The position numbers and the translations under genes were made by a program. From a virus, in IMG/VR virus record IMGVR_UViG_3300031800_000001, positions 1 through 64,000 of that record: DNA of 64,000 nucleotides; one strand, written 5' to 3'. The notes below the pieces were generated by a model. That model made no database searches. It saw only the letters and a program-made list of their open reading frames with translations, and had not been told where the DNA came from. Positions 19,290-39,153 of this stretch are shown piece by piece; position 1 is the first letter of the stretch; each line of letters opens with the position of its first letter.

Positions 19290-20048
19290 ATGCAAATGAC
19301 ATTAAAGTTCGGGAATCCAAACGCCAAGCTCAAAGCCTTGGCAAAGCGTTTCAACATGGTGCTGAAAACCTTTTCGCTGCCTAGTGGCTGGACGTGTCCG
19401 GCGGCGAAGGAATGCCATTCACGCGCAGACCGTGAGACGGGAAAAATCGAGGATGGACAGCACACTCAATTCCGTTGCTTTCAAGCCAGCGCGGAAGCTC
19501 TTTATCCTTCCCTGCGGGCAATGGTTTGGCACAATCACGATTTGCTCATGGCAAAAGTTAACGATGGACATTTGGCGTTGGCCGATTTGATTCATGCCAG
19601 CCTCCCAAAGAAATTTGATATTTTGCGCGTCCACGTGGGCGGGGATTATTTCAATTTGAGTTACCTTGCCGCATGGTGTGAAGTGGCCAAGCGCAATCCT
19701 GAAAAGATGTTTTACTCCTACACTAAAAGCACCCACCTATGGGAATTGGCGGAGGCATCCAATGGCATACCGTCAAATCTGATTTTAACCGCATCGCGTG
19801 GTGGTTGGTTCGACAGCAAGATTGAAGAAAACGCATACAAGTGCGCCGAGGTTGTTTTTAGCGAAGAAGAAGCCGCGCAAAAAGGTTTAGAGATTGACCA
19901 CGACGATTCGCTTGCGGCGTTTGGCAAAAAGTCGTTTGCTCTCCTTCTGCATGGTACGCAACCGAAAGGTTCAAAAGCATCTAAAGCCTTGTCCAAGCTG
20001 CGTAAAGCTGGCAAGGGAGGATATAAAAAGGAGGTGGCGATGCTATAG
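19290..20048 (+). CDS. Gp88-family phage protein
   Basis: The 252-residue protein matches the Gp88 family layout seen in actinophages and other phages. It has FSLPSGWTCPAAKECHSRAD near 28-47, then QFRCFQASAEALYPSLR, RVHVGGDYFNLSYLAAW near 111-127 and FYSYTKS. The Cys and His residues suggest a metal or radical-type active site, but no activity is established for the family. It ends beside a ribosome-site-like AAGGAGG. Confidence 0.78.
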   Translation: MQMTLKFGNPNAKLKALAKRFNMVLKTFSLPSGWTCPAAKECHSRADRETGKIEDGQHTQFRCFQASAEALYPSLRAMVWHNHDLLMAKVNDGHLALADLIHASLPKKFDILRVHVGGDYFNLSYLAAWCEVAKRNPEKMFYSYTKSTHLWELAEASNGIPSNLILTASRGGWFDSKIEENAYKCAEVVFSEEEAAQKGLEIDHDDSLAAFGKKSFALLLHGTQPKGSKASKALSKLRKAGKGGYKKEVAML

Positions 20049-20139
20049 AAGAGTTTATAATTGTTGCAATGGTGTGTATGTTCGCCTTAGGCGGAAAAAT
20101 GTTCGAAGAATAAAATTAACCAAAAGAAAGAAAAATAAA

Positions 20140-20508
20140 ATGAAGCTAACAGCAAACAAGCTAAAAAACGGTGCTCTGTATTACAACACCAAATCACAAC
20201 GCGTGGAGCGCATGCTCGGCACGCTAAATACTAATCGTGTTTGGACTACCAGTCATGACGCTAGCCCAGAAGCAAACAAGTGCAACAACTTGCGTTTTGC
20301 AAACGGGCAAGAGGTGGACGGCTATCTTCAGGCTAGCCCGAAATGGAACGCAATGAAATCGGAAGAGGTCGAGAGACGGATTGCCGCCGAAGGTGGTGAA
20401 AAGAAGTGGCTCGAAAATGTTTTCGCAATTGCTGACAGGGAATTGCCGCCGTTGCCAACACCACGGCAGGATTCAATATCAAATCCGTTGGGCGCGGCGC
20501 AGCAATAG
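20140..20508 (+). CDS. Protein of unknown function
   Basis: A 122-residue protein whose ATG follows an A-rich, AAGAAAG leader. The N-terminal half (MKLTANKLKNGALYYN, RVERMLG) looks like a small beta domain; the end is Pro/Gln-rich. A GC-rich hairpin follows at 20523. Not recognised. Confidence 0.65.
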   Translation: MKLTANKLKNGALYYNTKSQRVERMLGTLNTNRVWTTSHDASPEANKCNNLRFANGQEVDGYLQASPKWNAMKSEEVERRIAAEGGEKKWLENVFAIADRELPPLPTPRQDSISNPLGAAQQ

Positions 20509-20522
20509 AAGATCCAAATAGA

Positions 20523-20552
20523 AACCCCTAGGGCCCGGGAGGGCCTTAGGGG
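20523..20552. terminator. GC-rich hairpin, possible bidirectional terminator
   Basis: CCCCTAGGGCCC and GGGCC-TTAGGGG pair around GGGA. No strong T-run follows on the plus strand; on the minus strand TTTCTATTT follows, so it may help stop the giant minus-strand RNA. Confidence 0.45.
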
Positions 20553-20567
20553 CGGGGGACAAATAAG

Positions 20568-20640
20568 GCTTGACATCCGCGGGGCGGGGCCCCGGCCTTG
20601 CCGTTTCGGGTTCCCGCTGGCGGAGGTGGATAAGTTTTTA
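20568..20640. repeat. GCTTGAC GC-rich element
   Basis: GCTTGAC starts a GC-rich inverted segment (GGGGCGGGGCCCC and GGGTTCCCGC) ending in GGTGGATAA, an 8-of-9 match to a DnaA-type box. Same architecture as the elements at 18460 and 24679. Confidence 0.5.
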
Positions 20641-20649
20641 ATAAGAAAA

Positions 20650-21400
20650 GGGCGGATTGACGTGGTCAATGCACTTTAATGGACAACCCGACAGTTAAGC
20701 CAAGCCGTAGAATTCTCCAACCCTTTATGCCAACCCGATTTGGGTTAGCAAAAAAACTGAAATTAATGGGTAACAGGACTTCTTGATTACCTGCAACTAC
20801 TTTCGGAGCTAGATCAATGTTCATAGACCCTACAATACTTCGTACTCATCCACATCGCAAAGTCTCTCAACTCGACTCAGGCCCAAGAGATTGGTCGTCT
20901 CCCCCTTCTCGCTTCTGATGCCTTAAGGCTCTTGCAAACCTTTATTCGGCAATACCCGAGGAGCAACCGTCGCTACTCCAAATTGGTAACGGTGTAGGGA
21001 TTCGAACCCCACCAAACCAATATTCACCATCCACTTTCAATGCATCTCCAGCGGCGGCTTTCCTGATAAGGCTGCTTCACCCTGAGAGCTTAATAGCTCA
21101 AAGGTTAGAAGCACCAATTTCACCGTTAAATTTATAGATGTCCACCCGCCATGATGGATAAACCGTAAGTTGTCTTACCAACCCTGTCCCCAGCGGCCTA
21201 TTTGCATAACCGAAAGGGCGATGGAGGCGTTTCTCAGGGGCCATTTTCTGCGAACAGTTGGCCCCGACTCGGCATCTAATCGCTTGAGCCTGTAATCCAG
21301 CACTCAAGCGGTTGTTTCGTTAATCGCGCTGTTTTTCAAGCGCAGTTTTCGGAAACTAAAATTTTCTTTCAAAGAGCGGATTGAGCGTTTCCCAATCACT
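20650..21400 (-). ncRNA. Giant structured non-coding RNA (about 750 nt)
   Basis: No frame on either strand is credible here, yet a strong minus-strand promoter fires into it (21435-21407). The RNA is rich in clear hairpins. Examples are CGCTTGAG/CTCAAGCG (21310-21281), GGGGCCA/TGGCCCC closing a CTG-TTCG-CAG tetraloop (21265-21237), GTAAG-ACAA-CTTAC (21178-21165) and GGTAA/TTACC (20791-20769). A tRNA-like domain lies in the middle. Length, phage context, nearby tRNAs and an embedded tRNA-like part recall the GOLLD and ROOL giant RNAs of phages; membership is not shown here. The 3' end is uncertain. Confidence 0.7.
20984..21127 (-). ncRNA. tRNA-like domain with encoded CCA and expanded core
   Basis: On the minus strand AACGGTG (21127-21121) pairs over 7 bp with CACCGTT (20994-20988), followed by discriminator A and CCA. 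The T arm is TGGGG-TTCGAAT-CCCTA. Instead of D and anticodon arms there are about 110 bases with a GAGC-TATTAA-GCTC hairpin. At 144 nt it is too long for a tRNA, and no tmRNA-type tag frame or GGTTTCGA motif follows the 5' arm. Confidence 0.65.
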
Positions 21401-21406
21401 TTATCT

Positions 21407-21435
21407 ATTATAGACCCATTCTATGTTTGAGTCAA
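21407..21435 (-). promoter_or_regulatory. Strong minus-strand promoter of the giant RNA, TAGAAT-spacer class
   Basis: On the minus strand: TTGACT, 17-base spacer with TAGAAT at positions 7-12, and a perfect TATAAT. Predicted start about 21400. It lies within the end of the upstream minus-strand gene. Confidence 0.82.
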
Positions 21436-21618
21436 GATTTTTTTCAATTTCTTTTTGATGTAAGAGTAATCCTTGGCGCGGTTTACTATTACAGGAAAAT
21501 CGTCGTTTGCCTCACCCCAATACCAGTATTTTGCTGGTATGATTAGGGAGTAGTATTTGCTCTTGCCATTGTAATTGATATATGGCCCCTCTTTAGCTCT
21601 GTACATAACTGTATTCAT
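21421..21618 (-). CDS. Small protein, unknown function
   Basis: A 65-residue basic protein rich in Tyr, Lys and Trp. The ATG at 21618 lies two bases after the predicted +1; an in-frame TTG further upstream would sit in the -10. It is divergent from the gene at 21717 and precedes the giant RNA. Not recognised. Confidence 0.6.
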   Translation of the reverse strand: MNTVMYRAKEGPYINYNGKSKYYSLIIPAKYWYWGEANDDFPVIVNRAKDYSYIKKKLKKILTQT

Positions 21619-21626
21619 CTGTGTCA

Positions 21627-21655
21627 ATTATACGGTAATTCTAATTCACAGGCAA
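21627..21655 (-). promoter_or_regulatory. Minus-strand early promoter, TAGAAT-spacer class
   Basis: On the minus strand: TTGCCT, 17-base spacer with TAGAAT at positions 7-12, TATAAT. It faces away from the plus-strand promoter at 21682, forming a divergent pair. Confidence 0.75.
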
Positions 21656-21665
21656 GCCCTTTCTT

Positions 21666-21674
21666 TGTGAATAA
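21666..21674. promoter_or_regulatory. DnaA-type box between divergent promoters
   Basis: TGTGAATAA, the reverse of TTATTCACA. Confidence 0.5.
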
Positions 21675-21681
21675 GTTTGTA

Positions 21682-21710
21682 TTGCATGAAAGATAGAATG
21701 ATAGTATTCT
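21682..21710 (+). promoter_or_regulatory. Early promoter, TAGAAT-spacer class, leaderless
   Basis: TTGCAT, 17-base spacer with TAGAAT at positions 7-12, TATTCT. The ATG at 21717 is exactly the predicted +1. Confidence 0.76.
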
Positions 21711-21716
21711 TTAAAC

Positions 21717-21905
21717 ATGACAGCGAATGAAAAGCTAACGATTAAAGCCCAACTCTCAGAGTACCTTTTTGACAAGTCAATGCCCAACGGCCTCAAGGGC
21801 TGTAGGGTTTTTGTCATGGAAAACGACAACTTTGAAGGCATCTGGGAATTGAATAAATCTGAACTCTTGTCCGAACTGGCCGAGGCTACTGAAGGCTGTG
21901 AATAA
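21717..21905 (+). CDS. Small acidic protein, unknown function
   Basis: A 62-residue protein with an acidic C-terminal helix, probably translated from a leaderless message. It ends in Cys-Glu-stop written TGTGAATAA, a DnaA-type box, as do the genes at 18575 and 28944. Not recognised. Confidence 0.6.
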   Translation: MTANEKLTIKAQLSEYLFDKSMPNGLKGCRVFVMENDNFEGIWELNKSELLSELAEATEGCE

Positions 21906-21940
21906 GTTTTTACGAATTAGCTCGCTATTACCTCTCAACC

Positions 21941-21949
21941 TGTTATACT
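21941..21949 (+). promoter_or_regulatory. Extended -10 promoter, leaderless
   Basis: TGTTATACT with the ATG at 21956 at the predicted +1. The preceding GCTCGCTATTACCTCTCAAC is shared with the promoter at 18742. Confidence 0.65.
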
Positions 21950-21955
21950 ATACCC

Positions 21956-22291
21956 ATGATTGAACGAGACATGAAACACAAATTCGAGAACTTGGATTTC
22001 CAAGACATTAGCAAGACCCACGGTGCTGACTCCATACAGGCTTGGGTGAAAATGGAGAACGGCTATGAGGCTTCCATCGTTAAACATGGCGGTTCGTATG
22101 GCAGCGAAAAAGGTCTGTATGAGATGGGCATTTTTGGCCCGAATGGCAGTATGTGCGACCCCCTTGGCTGGGATGATACTGTCTTGGGTTGGCTTACGCC
22201 TCAATTGGTGTCGCGCCATCTGCAGCTTCTCGCGCACAAGCGACGGCCTCCCTCCATGAGTGGGCAGGAAAATCACCCGCAAAGCACTTGA
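21956..22291 (+). CDS. Protein of unknown function
   Basis: A 111-residue protein; the first 80 residues look like a small alpha/beta domain (GGSYGSEKGLYEMGIFGPNG), while the last 20 are basic and disordered. The start is fixed by the extended -10. Not recognised. Confidence 0.65.
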   Translation: MIERDMKHKFENLDFQDISKTHGADSIQAWVKMENGYEASIVKHGGSYGSEKGLYEMGIFGPNGSMCDPLGWDDTVLGWLTPQLVSRHLQLLAHKRRPPSMSGQENHPQST

Positions 22292-23289: not shown

Positions 23290-23571
23290 ATGAACGCAAT
23301 GGATAAATTCAAAGAGGAAATGGCGTTTTCGCTGTTTGGTCGTAGCCCATCGGTTTGCAAGGCCGGTGGTCAATGTGTGAAGTGCGGAGAGTTCGACCTT
23401 TCGTTTAGCGACGAACTCTCTCGCAAGGAGTTCGGCATCTCCGCTCTGTGCCAAACGTGCCAAGACGGAATCTTTGGCGTGGAGGAAGAACCCGAAGTTG
23501 GCCAAGGTTCTCACGCTATCCCCGGATTTTTCGTCCCACCCGCAGCATTAGACGGATTGGAGGGCGAATGA
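23290..23571 (+). CDS. Small zinc-finger phage protein (DELSRKEF / LCQTCQD type)
   Basis: The 93-residue protein has FGRS near 16, a Cys cluster (23, 29, 32), the block SDELSRKEFGISALCQTCQD near 40-59 and FG after it. Proteins with this FRDELSRKEY.ISGLCQ.CQD pattern are common in cyanophages and other large phages; their role is unknown. The Cys residues suggest one zinc site. Coupled to the next gene by ATGA. Confidence 0.75.
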   Translation: MNAMDKFKEEMAFSLFGRSPSVCKAGGQCVKCGEFDLSFSDELSRKEFGISALCQTCQDGIFGVEEEPEVGQGSHAIPGFFVPPAALDGLEGE

Positions 23572-24020
23572 AAGGCTACGTCCAAGTATACCGCAACCTC
23601 AACAAGAAGTTGAGCAGTCAAGTCGGCAATGGAATCGACCCCAAGGTAGTTGGCGACCAACCCGTGTATAGTGTGCGCGGCAATGATGGGTTAGTAAAAA
23701 AACATCTCTGTCATTTTGTTATACATGACTGTACTTTTCGTGTGGGCAAAAAGGGCAATGAACGTGTGTGCTACGAGAAGCGCAAAAATGTTCACGCTTA
23801 TATTCAAGGGAGGGAGTGTTGGAACGAGGAAGAAAAACGGTGGGAGTACATTGGCCCAGATTGCAATTATGTTAATGACCCGAATACAGTCACCATTACC
23901 TACGACCCTTACAAGTACAAGACCTTTGTGCGCGTAGACACAGGCGAGCCAATACATAAAGCCAAGGTTGTCGTATTCGGTTGTGGCAAAATGGGCAGAG
24001 AGGTAAAAGCGATTTTATGA
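23568..24020 (+). CDS. Protein of unknown function
   Basis: A 150-residue basic, beta-rich protein with several Cys (HLCHFVIHDCTFRV) and a Gly-rich end (VVVFGCGKMGREVK). Coupled by ATGA on both sides. Not recognised. Confidence 0.65.
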   Translation: MKGYVQVYRNLNKKLSSQVGNGIDPKVVGDQPVYSVRGNDGLVKKHLCHFVIHDCTFRVGKKGNERVCYEKRKNVHAYIQGRECWNEEEKRWEYIGPDCNYVNDPNTVTITYDPYKYKTFVRVDTGEPIHKAKVVVFGCGKMGREVKAIL

Positions 24021-30828: not shown

Positions 30829-31256
30829 GGGGGCGTACTGGTTTCGATTTGAAGCTTTACGCCAGATTGCAAGTAGAGGATGACGGTTGGCCTCTTAAAA
30901 AAACTGTCAAAAACATATATGCCAATGATGACATTGACATGGAGATGGCCCTTTCTGTAGACGAGGCTGACGAGATTCTCGCCAAGTTCGGATACGTTGA
31001 GGAGGAAGCCCTCTTGCTGGCAGTTTAAACCTGCCCCGTCCTACTCTGGATGCTCGTTAAAGAGCTAGGGCGTCGACAGCGAGCAAAAAACTGGACAGAT
31101 GAAGGGAGCCAGTATAAATAATCTCTTCATAAGTTCGCACAGGTCGGTTAGTCAAGTGACCCACCAACGCGAGTAAGAAATAATACTTGACTAAGCTTGT
31201 AGTATATCTGTCTGACGGTTTTGAAGACGTGGGTTCGACTCCCACCGCCTCCACCA
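30829..31256 (+). ncRNA. ssrA: Phage tmRNA with a 35-codon tag
   Basis: A 428-nt tmRNA, which frees stalled ribosomes by trans-translation. The 5' GGGGGCG (30829-30835) pairs with CGCCTCC (31246-31252), followed by A and CCA. TACTGGTTTCGATT follows the 5' arm, and the T arm is GTGGG-TTCGACT-CCCAC. The tag begins at GCC 30921 with Ala-Asn-Asp, as in the E. coli tag, and runs 35 codons to TAA at 31026. The stop lies in a GGCAG/CTGCC hairpin, again as in E. coli. The tag ends LLLAV rather than LAA. Bacterial tags are usually about 8-15 residues, so this one is exceptionally long. Confidence 0.9.
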
Positions 31257-36393: not shown

Positions 36394-37318
36394 CTGCAAG
36401 GTCTGCGAAAAAGAATTCGAAAACGACAGGCAATTACATGGGCACCTAAAGGCCCATGGATTGCGCATGGTAGAGTATTACCAGAAGCACTCCCCCCGCT
36501 ATGACAAACATGACGGTAAAATAATAAAATTCAAAAACAAAGAACAATACCTCACAACCGAATTCAATACTCGGACCAACCTTAGAATGTGGCTCAAGAG
36601 CATAAGTGAAAACGAAGCAAAAGAATATTGCAAAGACGTACTTATAAAAAGAAAAGAAAAACGAGACCTTATATATACCCCGTCTCAAGTAGAGCTTAGA
36701 ACCGTAATAAGCCCACCCATGCAGTACTATAATGAATTATTCGGGGATTACTATAGGCTGTGCTCTAGCCTAGGGTTCAAGAATAAGTATGGCCGCTTTA
36801 GCGACATAGTAAGTGGTTACGAGTACAATAAGCCAGAATATAAAATATTCGTAGATACCCGTGAACGTATACCACTTAAATTTGAAAGAGGCATTGAGGT
36901 GAGAAAATTGGATTTCGGAGACTATGCGTTCAGCAGCAAAACGGCGACATGCAATTGTTATATAGAAAGAAAAATGTTATCTGACTTTATAGGTACCATG
37001 AGCGGGGGATATGAGAGATTCATAAACGAAATAAAAAGAGCACAAGATGCAGATGCGTATCTTGTGGTTCTGGTGGAAGACAGCTTAACTCATGCTATGA
37101 GTTTTCCATACTTACCACATATATCAAAAAAAATAAAAGCAACCCCCGAGTTTATATTTCATAGAGTAAGGAGTATAATACAGAAATATCCGCATACCCA
37201 ATTTTTATTTGTAAATGGAAGGGCAGAGGCTTCTAGAGTTATAGAAAGAATTTTTACATGTGGATGTGTTTATAAGAAAGTTGATTTGCAATACGCTTAC
37301 GACCTAAAGAAACTATAA
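36386..37318 (+). CDS. C2H2 zinc finger plus ERCC4-type nuclease
   Basis: The 310-residue protein starts with a C2H2 finger (C4, C7, H20, H24) and ends with an ERCC4/XPF-like nuclease at about 150-250: FVDTRE, KLDFGDY, then YIERK and an acidic-basic helix ending in a Tyr-Glu-Arg-Phe group. The G-D-Y and I-E-R-K motifs supply the metal-binding residues. It overlaps both neighbours (ATGG and TAATG joints) and directly precedes terminase, so a role in DNA processing or branch resolution before packaging is likely but inferred. Confidence 0.82.
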   Translation: MVNCKVCEKEFENDRQLHGHLKAHGLRMVEYYQKHSPRYDKHDGKIIKFKNKEQYLTTEFNTRTNLRMWLKSISENEAKEYCKDVLIKRKEKRDLIYTPSQVELRTVISPPMQYYNELFGDYYRLCSSLGFKNKYGRFSDIVSGYEYNKPEYKIFVDTRERIPLKFERGIEVRKLDFGDYAFSSKTATCNCYIERKMLSDFIGTMSGGYERFINEIKRAQDADAYLVVLVEDSLTHAMSFPYLPHISKKIKATPEFIFHRVRSIIQKYPHTQFLFVNGRAEASRVIERIFTCGCVYKKVDLQYAYDLKKL

Positions 37319-39153
37319 TGTGGTACACGCCAGAAAAATATAATCAAGCACCGCTGAAGAACGTTAACGCCGAATTCCTTAAGCTAAAAGGTGGACTAGA
37401 CGACAGGGAAGCAAAAATTACCCTAGCTAAATTCCTGAGGAGTAACCTAGGCCTTACAACGGAACTTATTTCGGGTATAAAGCTAGCGCCCTATCAGGAG
37501 GTGACCTTAAAGGCTTTGATGAATAGGAACTTTTCTATGTGCGTATGGGGTCGCGGTTGTGGTAAGACTTTTATTGCGAGTGTATTTTGTTTCTTACAGT
37601 GCATCTTCGAACCAAGGACAAAAATTTTAATAGCTGGGCCGACCTTTAGAACCGCTAGGTTTATATTTAATAATCTGGAAAACATAGTAGAATCAGAAGG
37701 TGCCGAACTCCTAGCGCAAGCCTTTGGCGCGAAGATCAAAAGAAACGACCAGTATGAATGGAAGATAAACGAAGGGACTATAACGGCTATACCACTCAAC
37801 GGAGAAAAGATTCGTGGTTTCAGGGCAAACGTTCTTGTCCTTGATGAGTATATGCTTATTCCGGAAGATATCATAACTAATGTTCTCATGCCGTTCTTGG
37901 TCGCGCCACAAAATATAAAAGAGCGCTTGGAGATTAGAGAAATGGAAGATAATCTAATCAAGAAAGGAGTCATGAAGGAAGAGGACAGAATGGTTTTCGA
38001 AAATACGTCTAAAATGATTGCCCTTTCGTCAGCTAGCTATACATTTGAAAACCTATATAAAACATACAAAGAATGGATGGAGAAAATAACCACGGAGGAA
38101 AACGTTGGTGAGGCAAAATATTTTATTTCCCAAATGGGATACGAATCCCTCCCGAAAGAAATGATTGATCCAATCATTATCGAAGAAGCGCAGGGCGGCG
38201 GGCAAAGCCATGCCAGCTTCCAGCGGGAATATTGCGCTCAATTTACTGATGGTTCTGACTCTTATTATAGTGCAAAAAAAATGCATGAATGCACAATTCC
38301 AGATGGAGAGGAACCCACCACGCAACTATTTGGAACCAAGGGGTCAAAATATGTATTAGGCATCGACCCAAGTTTTAGTAATAGTCCATCGTCTGACTTT
38401 TTTGCAATGTCTGTGCTGGAACTAGACAGCAAAACCCAACAGGGGACACTGGTGCACAGTTATGCTGTGGCTGGTGGAAATCTGACAGACCATATAAAAT
38501 ACCTTCATTATATTTTAACTCATTTTGATATAGAGATGATTATTATTGATAATGCAGGAGCAGAATTTATAGATAGCGCTAATACATCCGCCATGTTTAA
38601 GGAAAGCAGAATTAAGGTAAATTTTTTCGAATTTAACAGCGCCAAAGACGGAGAAGACTACAGGAAAGAAACTATGAAAGCAAGTAGGTCGTACAATAAG
38701 ACCGCCAATTATATCTGTTTCAAACAGGTGTTTACTTCTGACTTTATAAGAAAAGCAAACGAACATCTTCAAACATGCATAGACCATAAGAAGGTGTGGT
38801 TTGCGTCAAAAGCAGCCGCGTGTGACTCAGCGTTCAATAGGAACACCTCTAAAGTACTCCCCTTGAAACATGTTAATGAAGTAAGCGCGTTAGAGTTTGT
38901 AGAAACCCAAGACGCTCTAGTATATCAAACAAAAAAGCAATGCGCCCTTGTAGAGGTAAAAAGCACCGCGAAGGGAACACAAACATTCGACTTGCCTCTT
39001 CACCTTAAGAAAAGCACATCCGCACACAAAGCTAGAAAAGATAATTATACTACTTTAATGCTTGGGTGTTGGGGTATTAAGTGCTATTATGATATACAAC
39101 ACGCTAGAAGAAGTGGGGTCGAGGATACCTTTACGCCATTCATGATAGAATAA
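37318..39153 (+). CDS. terL: Terminase large subunit
   Basis: The 611-residue packaging motor has Walker A GRGCGKT at 78-84, Walker B VLVLDEYML near 172-180 and an RNase-H-like nuclease domain beginning YVLGIDPSFS with Asp at about 350 and IIIDNAG near 410. The layout fits T4-type (headful) terminases. Start is a coupled ATG right after the previous TAA. Confidence 0.93.
   Translation: MWYTPEKYNQAPLKNVNAEFLKLKGGLDDREAKITLAKFLRSNLGLTTELISGIKLAPYQEVTLKALMNRNFSMCVWGRGCGKTFIASVFCFLQCIFEPRTKILIAGPTFRTARFIFNNLENIVESEGAELLAQAFGAKIKRNDQYEWKINEGTITAIPLNGEKIRGFRANVLVLDEYMLIPEDIITNVLMPFLVAPQNIKERLEIREMEDNLIKKGVMKEEDRMVFENTSKMIALSSASYTFENLYKTYKEWMEKITTEENVGEAKYFISQMGYESLPKEMIDPIIIEEAQGGGQSHASFQREYCAQFTDGSDSYYSAKKMHECTIPDGEEPTTQLFGTKGSKYVLGIDPSFSNSPSSDFFAMSVLELDSKTQQGTLVHSYAVAGGNLTDHIKYLHYILTHFDIEMIIIDNAGAEFIDSANTSAMFKESRIKVNFFEFNSAKDGEDYRKETMKASRSYNKTANYICFKQVFTSDFIRKANEHLQTCIDHKKVWFASKAAACDSAFNRNTSKVLPLKHVNEVSALEFVETQDALVYQTKKQCALVEVKSTAKGTQTFDLPLHLKKSTSAHKARKDNYTTLMLGCWGIKCYYDIQHARRSGVEDTFTPFMIE

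Follow-up and report, generated by a model that had tools for sequence, protein, structure and literature searches.

A conserved tRNA-like domain with an enlarged core in a modular non-coding RNA array of a marine phage

The window analyzed here, a 64,000-nucleotide stretch of a 116-kb virus record from a marine phage, carries on its minus strand a series of structured RNA elements arranged, in the direction of transcription, as promoter, hairpin, the element CGCTCTTTGAAA, module A, module B, a tRNA-like domain (TLD), a manA RNA, and a GC-rich hairpin with a T-rich tail near position 20520. The longest open stretch on this strand spans at most 73 codons, and the 911-nt transcript folds better than its shuffled counterparts (z -4.7, 20 shuffles). 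The features are listed below; L321, L322, L323, L324, and L482 are related arrays, and R1 is a covariance model of the TLD.

21407–21435, minus strand: predicted sigma-70 type promoter, TTGACT-17-TATAAT, with 11 of 12 consensus matches
21379–21397, minus strand: leader hairpin GATTGGGAAACGCTCAATC, immediately 5' of the boxA-like element, from its fold
21367–21378, minus strand: boxA-like element CGCTCTTTGAAA; TCTTTGARA occurs once in five of six arrays
21281–21310, minus strand: module A hairpin CGCTTGAG-TGCTGGATTACAGG-CTCAAGCG, from its fold; the core GTGCTGGRTTACAGGC occurs twice in L324
21137–21265, minus strand: module B, CGCCTCCATCGCCC ... GTAAGACAACTTACGGTTTATCC, with 87% identity over 45 nt to L324
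20984–21127, minus strand: the whole TLD, from homologues in L321, L322, and L323 and from covariation; R1 scores 157.5 bits at the window copy
21121–21127, minus strand: 5' strand of acceptor stem P1, AACGGTG; compensatory change in six of seven pairs across four sequences
21114–21120, minus strand: AAATTGG, the constant AARUUGG linker; AA-R-UUGG is invariant in the four sequences
21073–21113, minus strand: arm P2, TGCTTC/GAAGCA, with a variable loop; 100% paired, two pairs with compensatory change
21012–21071, minus strand: long arm P3 plus P4 with a constant GAAAGC loop, at the position of the anticodon arm; 91.7% (P3) and 96.2% (P4) of cells paired, compensatory changes in each
20995–21011, minus strand: T arm TGGGG-TTCGAAT-CCCTA, from the sequence; the T loop is invariant
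20988–20994, minus strand: 3' strand of acceptor stem P1, CACCGTT, with the same six of seven compensatory pairs
20980–20987, minus strand: discriminator A and tail ACCAATTT (AACAATTT, a recurring linker, in relatives); eight copies in six arrays, 0.2 expected
20763–20977, minus strand: divergent manA RNA (RF01745), the module after the TLD; 34.6 bits, E 9.3e-7, cut-off 55.2; 73% identical to L321
20517–20552, minus strand: probable terminator, GC-rich hairpin CCCCTAAGGCCC...GGGCCCTAGGGG followed by TTTCTATT, its fold read by eye and not listed by a terminator scan

The preliminary description of this locus had proposed a tRNA-like domain with an enlarged core, pointing to a T arm, acceptor, discriminator A, and CCA as in a tRNA and to a matching 5' arm, AACGGTG; its coordinates and the perfect 7-bp acceptor pairing in the window proved correct. 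The domain is ~145 nt long, and on the minus strand the acceptor is followed by discriminator A at 20987, CCA at 20986–20984, and then ATTT. Folded in isolation, a 150-nt stretch reaches -53 kcal/mol with the acceptor closed (shuffle mean -39.5, z -3.45, 0 of 200 shuffles as good). The combination of a perfect T stem and, 60–190 nt upstream, a perfect 7-nt 5' arm is found once in the window, compared to 0.01 times per Markov-shuffled window, using a search form that was picked after the feature had been seen.

The T arm and 7-bp acceptor stem of a tRNA are present in the TLD, and a D arm and an anticodon arm of standard size are absent. ARAGORN calls neither a tRNA nor a tmRNA at the TLD, intron-permissive mode included, as the preliminary description had suggested searching, and RF00005 (tRNA) has no match in the stretch searched (20000–22000, E up to 5). 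In the tRNA-like domain of tmRNA (RF00023), the D stem is missing, a GG follows shortly behind the acceptor, and the T arm is flanked by a long helix. The TLD shares these three traits, AARUUGG directly 3' of the acceptor forming a short D loop without a stem, and in layout it appears to resemble the tmRNA domain more than a tRNA. The GG of AARUUGG may dock into the T loop of the TLD. Unlike tmRNA, the TLD has no tag reading frame, carries the added arm P2, draws no ARAGORN call, and stays below the cut-off of the tmRNA model, with no RF00023 match for the window's domain and a weak one for that of L323 (16.9 bits, E 0.002, cut-off 47). The earlier statement that the domain is neither a tRNA nor a tmRNA is upheld by the lack of an ARAGORN call, anticodon arm, and tag frame.

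The phage encodes a separate, standard one-piece tmRNA on the plus strand (30829–31256, 147.6 bits) with an encoded CCA. ARAGORN starts its tag at EADEIL, and by our own reading an open frame extends back to an upstream GCC (ANDDIDMEMALSVDEADEILAKFGYVEEEALLLAV, 35 codons). The tmRNAs of relatives have 31-codon tags with the same EADxILAK core, so phages of this group may share a long tag.

The terminase encoded at 37318–39153 has hundreds of relatives in viral contigs, and blastn of the array RNA against 49 terminase-relative records gave matches in six. Many of the relatives' contigs are fragments, and G001 and G005, the long records nearest by terminase (92–93% identical), end before the expected array position, which makes the missing array in these two uninformative. 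The TLD is present in three relatives, L321 (G029), L322 (G028), and L323 (G042). Their acceptor stems differ in sequence between lineages but still pair: the window has AACGGTG/CACCGTT, L322 and L323 share GTTGGTG/CACCAGC, and L321 has GCCACGG/ACGTGGC, where six of seven positions pair. The compensatory changes that the preliminary description had proposed to look for in this stem were thus found, at six of its seven pairs, and in none of the three relatives with a TLD was the T arm kept and the 5' arm pairing lost. No constant identity pair such as G3-U70 is seen.

Because a MAFFT alignment of all four sequences (A1) misplaced L321 in P3, the structure was set on a second alignment (A2) with L321 left out. 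In these three sequences, 98.1% of the cells of a 35-pair structure are paired, and eight pairs are changed on both sides; none of 500 shuffles reaches either value, and slid versions of the structure pair 27–51%. Model R1, built from the same three sequences, recovers the held-out L321 with 41.7 bits (E about 1e-8 to 1e-9). Its other matches, at 15–22 bits, were rejected as homologues, as on inspection they were tmRNA 3' ends or tRNAs. Across all four sequences with five helices kept, 95.5% of cells are paired and 15 pairs are compensatory (5.7 in shuffles), six of them in the acceptor. As this four-row alignment was made to fit the model and is biased in its favor, cleaner evidence comes from the count on three rows and from the recovery of L321. 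The set comprises four sequences, with L322 and L323 close to each other in the TLD region. Constant features include AARUUGG after the acceptor, UGCU/AGCA at the base of P2, the T loop, and discriminator A in four of four sequences; the GAAAGC loop is constant apart from small shifts in L321. The tRNA-like domain in the window is genuine and conserved; it has an enlarged core, is not a tRNA or a tmRNA, and lies, as originally described, inside a long non-coding transcript.

A TLD-core pattern finds the three true loci and one more, L331, which was rejected because of its location in coding sequence, and a wider pattern with an acceptor-pairing filter, run on viral and genome contigs (exact matches for the genome scan), yielded no further homologue among the matches listed. 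Matches of a loose pattern, T arm-CCA-GAATAA, in viral contigs were judged, among those listed, to be mostly chance. No match to the window RNA was found by blastn among 50,697 phage records, with the same outcome for the related arrays, and no relatives were found with the neighboring protein (19290–20048) as bait. In the open-access literature, no phage tRNA-like RNA of the TLD kind and no boxA-led phage RNA arrays were found.

The setting of the TLD varies more than its structure. In the window the array runs leader-A-B-TLD-manA; L321 has leader-TLD-X-manA, and L322 and L323 have C-TLD-D. Two arrays are devoid of a TLD, namely, L482 (leader-X-C-another-manA) and L324 (A-manA-A-B), and in L487 module C stands alone between a promoter and a gene. 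The TLD thus behaves as a unit of its own, with different neighbors from array to array, and the other modules are likewise independent of it, as they occur in arrays without a TLD and with other neighbors elsewhere. Judged from these orders, the "giant RNA" of the preliminary description looks like an array of interchangeable structured modules. Its suggestion that the TLD serves as a processing or folding part of one such RNA holds insofar as the domain lies in a long non-coding transcript; the role within a single giant RNA is doubtful, given the modular arrays that exist without it (L324, L482).

Two short elements recur across the arrays. TCTTTGARA, which is missing from L323, lies 8 to 123 nt into the compared stretches of the other five arrays, compared to 0.05 occurrences expected over all six. 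We take this string, and CGCTCTTTGAAA in the window, to resemble the boxA antitermination element of rRNA leaders and lambda, and a boxA-like antitermination role of the leader is predicted from that similarity. The leader is common by descent in at least L321 and L482. A GC-rich palindromic element, GCTTGACA-CC...GGGCC...GTCAAG-like, lies beside three arrays (window 20564–20612; L321 1112–1152; L482, reverse complement, 1073–1110) and is possibly a terminator or a mobile repeat.

The second recurring element bears on the encoded CCA, which the preliminary description took as a sign that the domain could be charged. After the acceptor, the three relatives have AACAATTT, with ACA at the position of CCA, and the window has ACCAATTT; an encoded CCA is confined to the window copy. 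The string A[AC]CAATTT, found eight times in the six arrays against 0.2 expected, also separates other modules, and the CCA of the window is best read, on these comparisons, as a one-base variant of the linker. CCA is therefore weak evidence for charging, and this part of the original argument is not supported. Trimming and CCA addition after the discriminator would be possible. The acceptor stem varies in sequence and so reveals no fixed synthetase identity, and charging of the TLD with a specific amino acid is unlikely.

The manA RNA downstream of the TLD aligns to the full RF01745 model from 20977 to 20763 with a score under the curated cut-off (34.6 vs 55.2 bits), and a search of the whole record did not report it; manA modules in the relatives' arrays pass the cut-off with 67.1 and 69.5 bits. 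In 120 viral manA loci, manA mostly directly follows a promoter, in contrast to the window, where it is the last recognized module of an array. The idea that a TLD-like domain always lies upstream of manA was rejected for that reason. In three of the viral loci (L009, L109, and L119), a tRNA (anticodon TGT by eye) ends directly before manA with no promoter between them, so manA can also adjoin a true tRNA within one transcript. The manA RNA is filed in Rfam as a cis-regulator; the arrays put it in a different setting, as one module among several of a non-coding transcript.

The nearest precedent of the TLD is the species 1 RNA (rnaC) of phage T4, which has been known for decades. It is a stable RNA (PMC9697503) with no assigned role (PMC3014915; PMC9697503). 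Its 139 nt are encoded in the tRNA region of T4 and comprise a T arm and two large arms, the acceptor being followed by UACA. Both RNAs are phage encoded, measure ~140 nt, have a standard T arm beside a 7-nt acceptor and two enlarged arms in place of the D and anticodon arms, and lie among other structured RNAs; rnaC also has ACA, not CCA, after the acceptor, as in the TLD relatives. rnaC matches 716 phage records, and in its Karamvirus relatives an A-U pair of the acceptor is replaced by G-C, a compensatory change. Homology between the two RNAs is not detectable: R1 gives rnaC 14.4 bits, less than it gives the tRNAs of T4. rnaC is also without AARUUGG, has two U-U mismatches in its 7-nt acceptor pairing, and has rnaD and tRNAs as neighbors. 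When rnaC was searched with Rfam, all families stayed below their cut-offs. The TLD is like rnaC in outline but, by sequence, not a member of its family. An rnaC relative in Enterobacter phage KKP_3262 (L492, 77–172) carries the annotation tRNA-Phe(gaa), which is probably mistaken and due to the T arm.

Based on these data, a model to which we give slightly better than even chances is that of an ~880-nt array of separately folding RNAs in which the TLD would be a free tRNA mimic matured by tRNA enzymes. The transcript would run from the promoter at 21435–21407 to the probable terminator near 20520, its leader would let the untranslated RNA escape early termination, and it would consist of small RNAs joined by short AACAATTT-type linkers. 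By covariation, the TLD folds with a 7-bp acceptor, a fixed AARUUGG without a D stem, the added P2, P3/P4 replacing the anticodon arm, and the T arm stacked on the acceptor. RNase P would cut before 21127, and the linker on the 3' side would be cut and trimmed, yielding a free, stable RNA that would mimic the acceptor-T half of a tRNA and may engage host tRNA-handling proteins during infection; the other modules would mature separately. As the acceptor sequence is free and its pairing is kept, the likely partners are shape-reading enzymes (RNase P, tRNA trimming and modification enzymes, possibly EF-Tu) rather than a single synthetase. Covariation, the recovery of the held-out L321, module independence, the excess of the linker and the boxA-like element, and the T4 rnaC precedent count for this model; against it stand the small set of four homologues, two of them close to each other, and the lack of the boxA-like element in L323, and the discriminator A and encoded CCA of the window also fit a chargeable RNA.

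Alternatively, the TLD might be punctuation only, a tRNA-like processing signal that frees its neighbors and has no job of its own, comparable to tRNA-punctuated transcripts or to mascRNA at the end of MALAT1. Cleavage of the TLD by RNase P is plausible. An acceptor and a T arm are what RNase P needs, and the domain lies between other modules in the window, L322, and L323. Its best weak Rfam match is mascRNA-menRNA (RF01684; 22.4 bits, E 0.15, under the cut-off of 42.5), also a tRNA-like element within a long non-coding RNA, but mascRNA is eukaryotic and ~60 nt long, and the TLD core is much larger. We consider a pure signal unlikely, because it would need no conserved P2, P3, P4, or GAAAGC loop and because the same neighbors occur without a TLD in L324 and L482. 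Somewhat less probable is a single ornate RNA of the GOLLD or ROOL kind that assembles as a whole with the TLD built in. The folding of the 911-nt transcript would fit it, and GOLLD and ROOL are, like the window array, long phage RNAs near tRNAs, GOLLD sometimes holding tRNAs in its linker (PMC12286853). The arrays without a TLD argue against one co-folding RNA as well, as do the shuffling of module order and content between phages and the lone module in L487, and searches of the window at the gathering cut-off, and of 20000–22000 at E up to 5, gave no match to GOLLD, ROOL, or another large-RNA family.

The discriminator A in all four sequences, the CCA encoded in the window, the tmRNA-like layout (GG close behind the acceptor, D stem absent), and the weak tmRNA match of L323 could also point to an aminoacylated RNA acting in translation or tagging, like a tmRNA without a message. 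This reading is improbable to us, as the relatives have ACA in place of CCA, the acceptor pairs differ per lineage without a constant identity pair, and a phage that already has a standard tmRNA shows no tag frame here. Bacterial Y RNAs contain a tRNA-like module, and a Y RNA of the YrlA type would bind with Ro60 to RNA-decay enzymes; we regard this as very improbable, with no Y RNA family matching in 20000–22000 at E up to 5. A Ro60 (TROVE) domain was likewise not found in the 116-kb record, but this record may be incomplete, and the protein could come from the host.

More generally, and with less than even confidence, the separately maturing array may typify a marine phage family with antiterminated, rRNA-operon-like arrays whose modules are shuffled like tRNA genes, manA and the anticodon-less tRNA mimic each being a stable product of its own that targets host translation or tRNA metabolism. 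With the TLD, T4 species 1 RNA gains an apparently unrelated phage counterpart that shares its tRNA-like half, which suggests that phages reached anticodon-less tRNA mimics more than once, and the TLD and rnaC as a pair make it testable which shared features are visible to a host tRNA enzyme.

Two protein genes near the array may be mentioned. The gene adjoining it (21956–22291, plus strand) has, by eye, a homologue next to the solitary module C of L487, which by the same reading is a conserved neighborhood despite different RNA modules. A small phage protein with an NPYKY/DPYKY motif near its end is encoded close to the array (23448–24020, plus strand), and in L485 the gene for an NPYKY/DPYKY protein lies, by eye, directly before a manA RNA.
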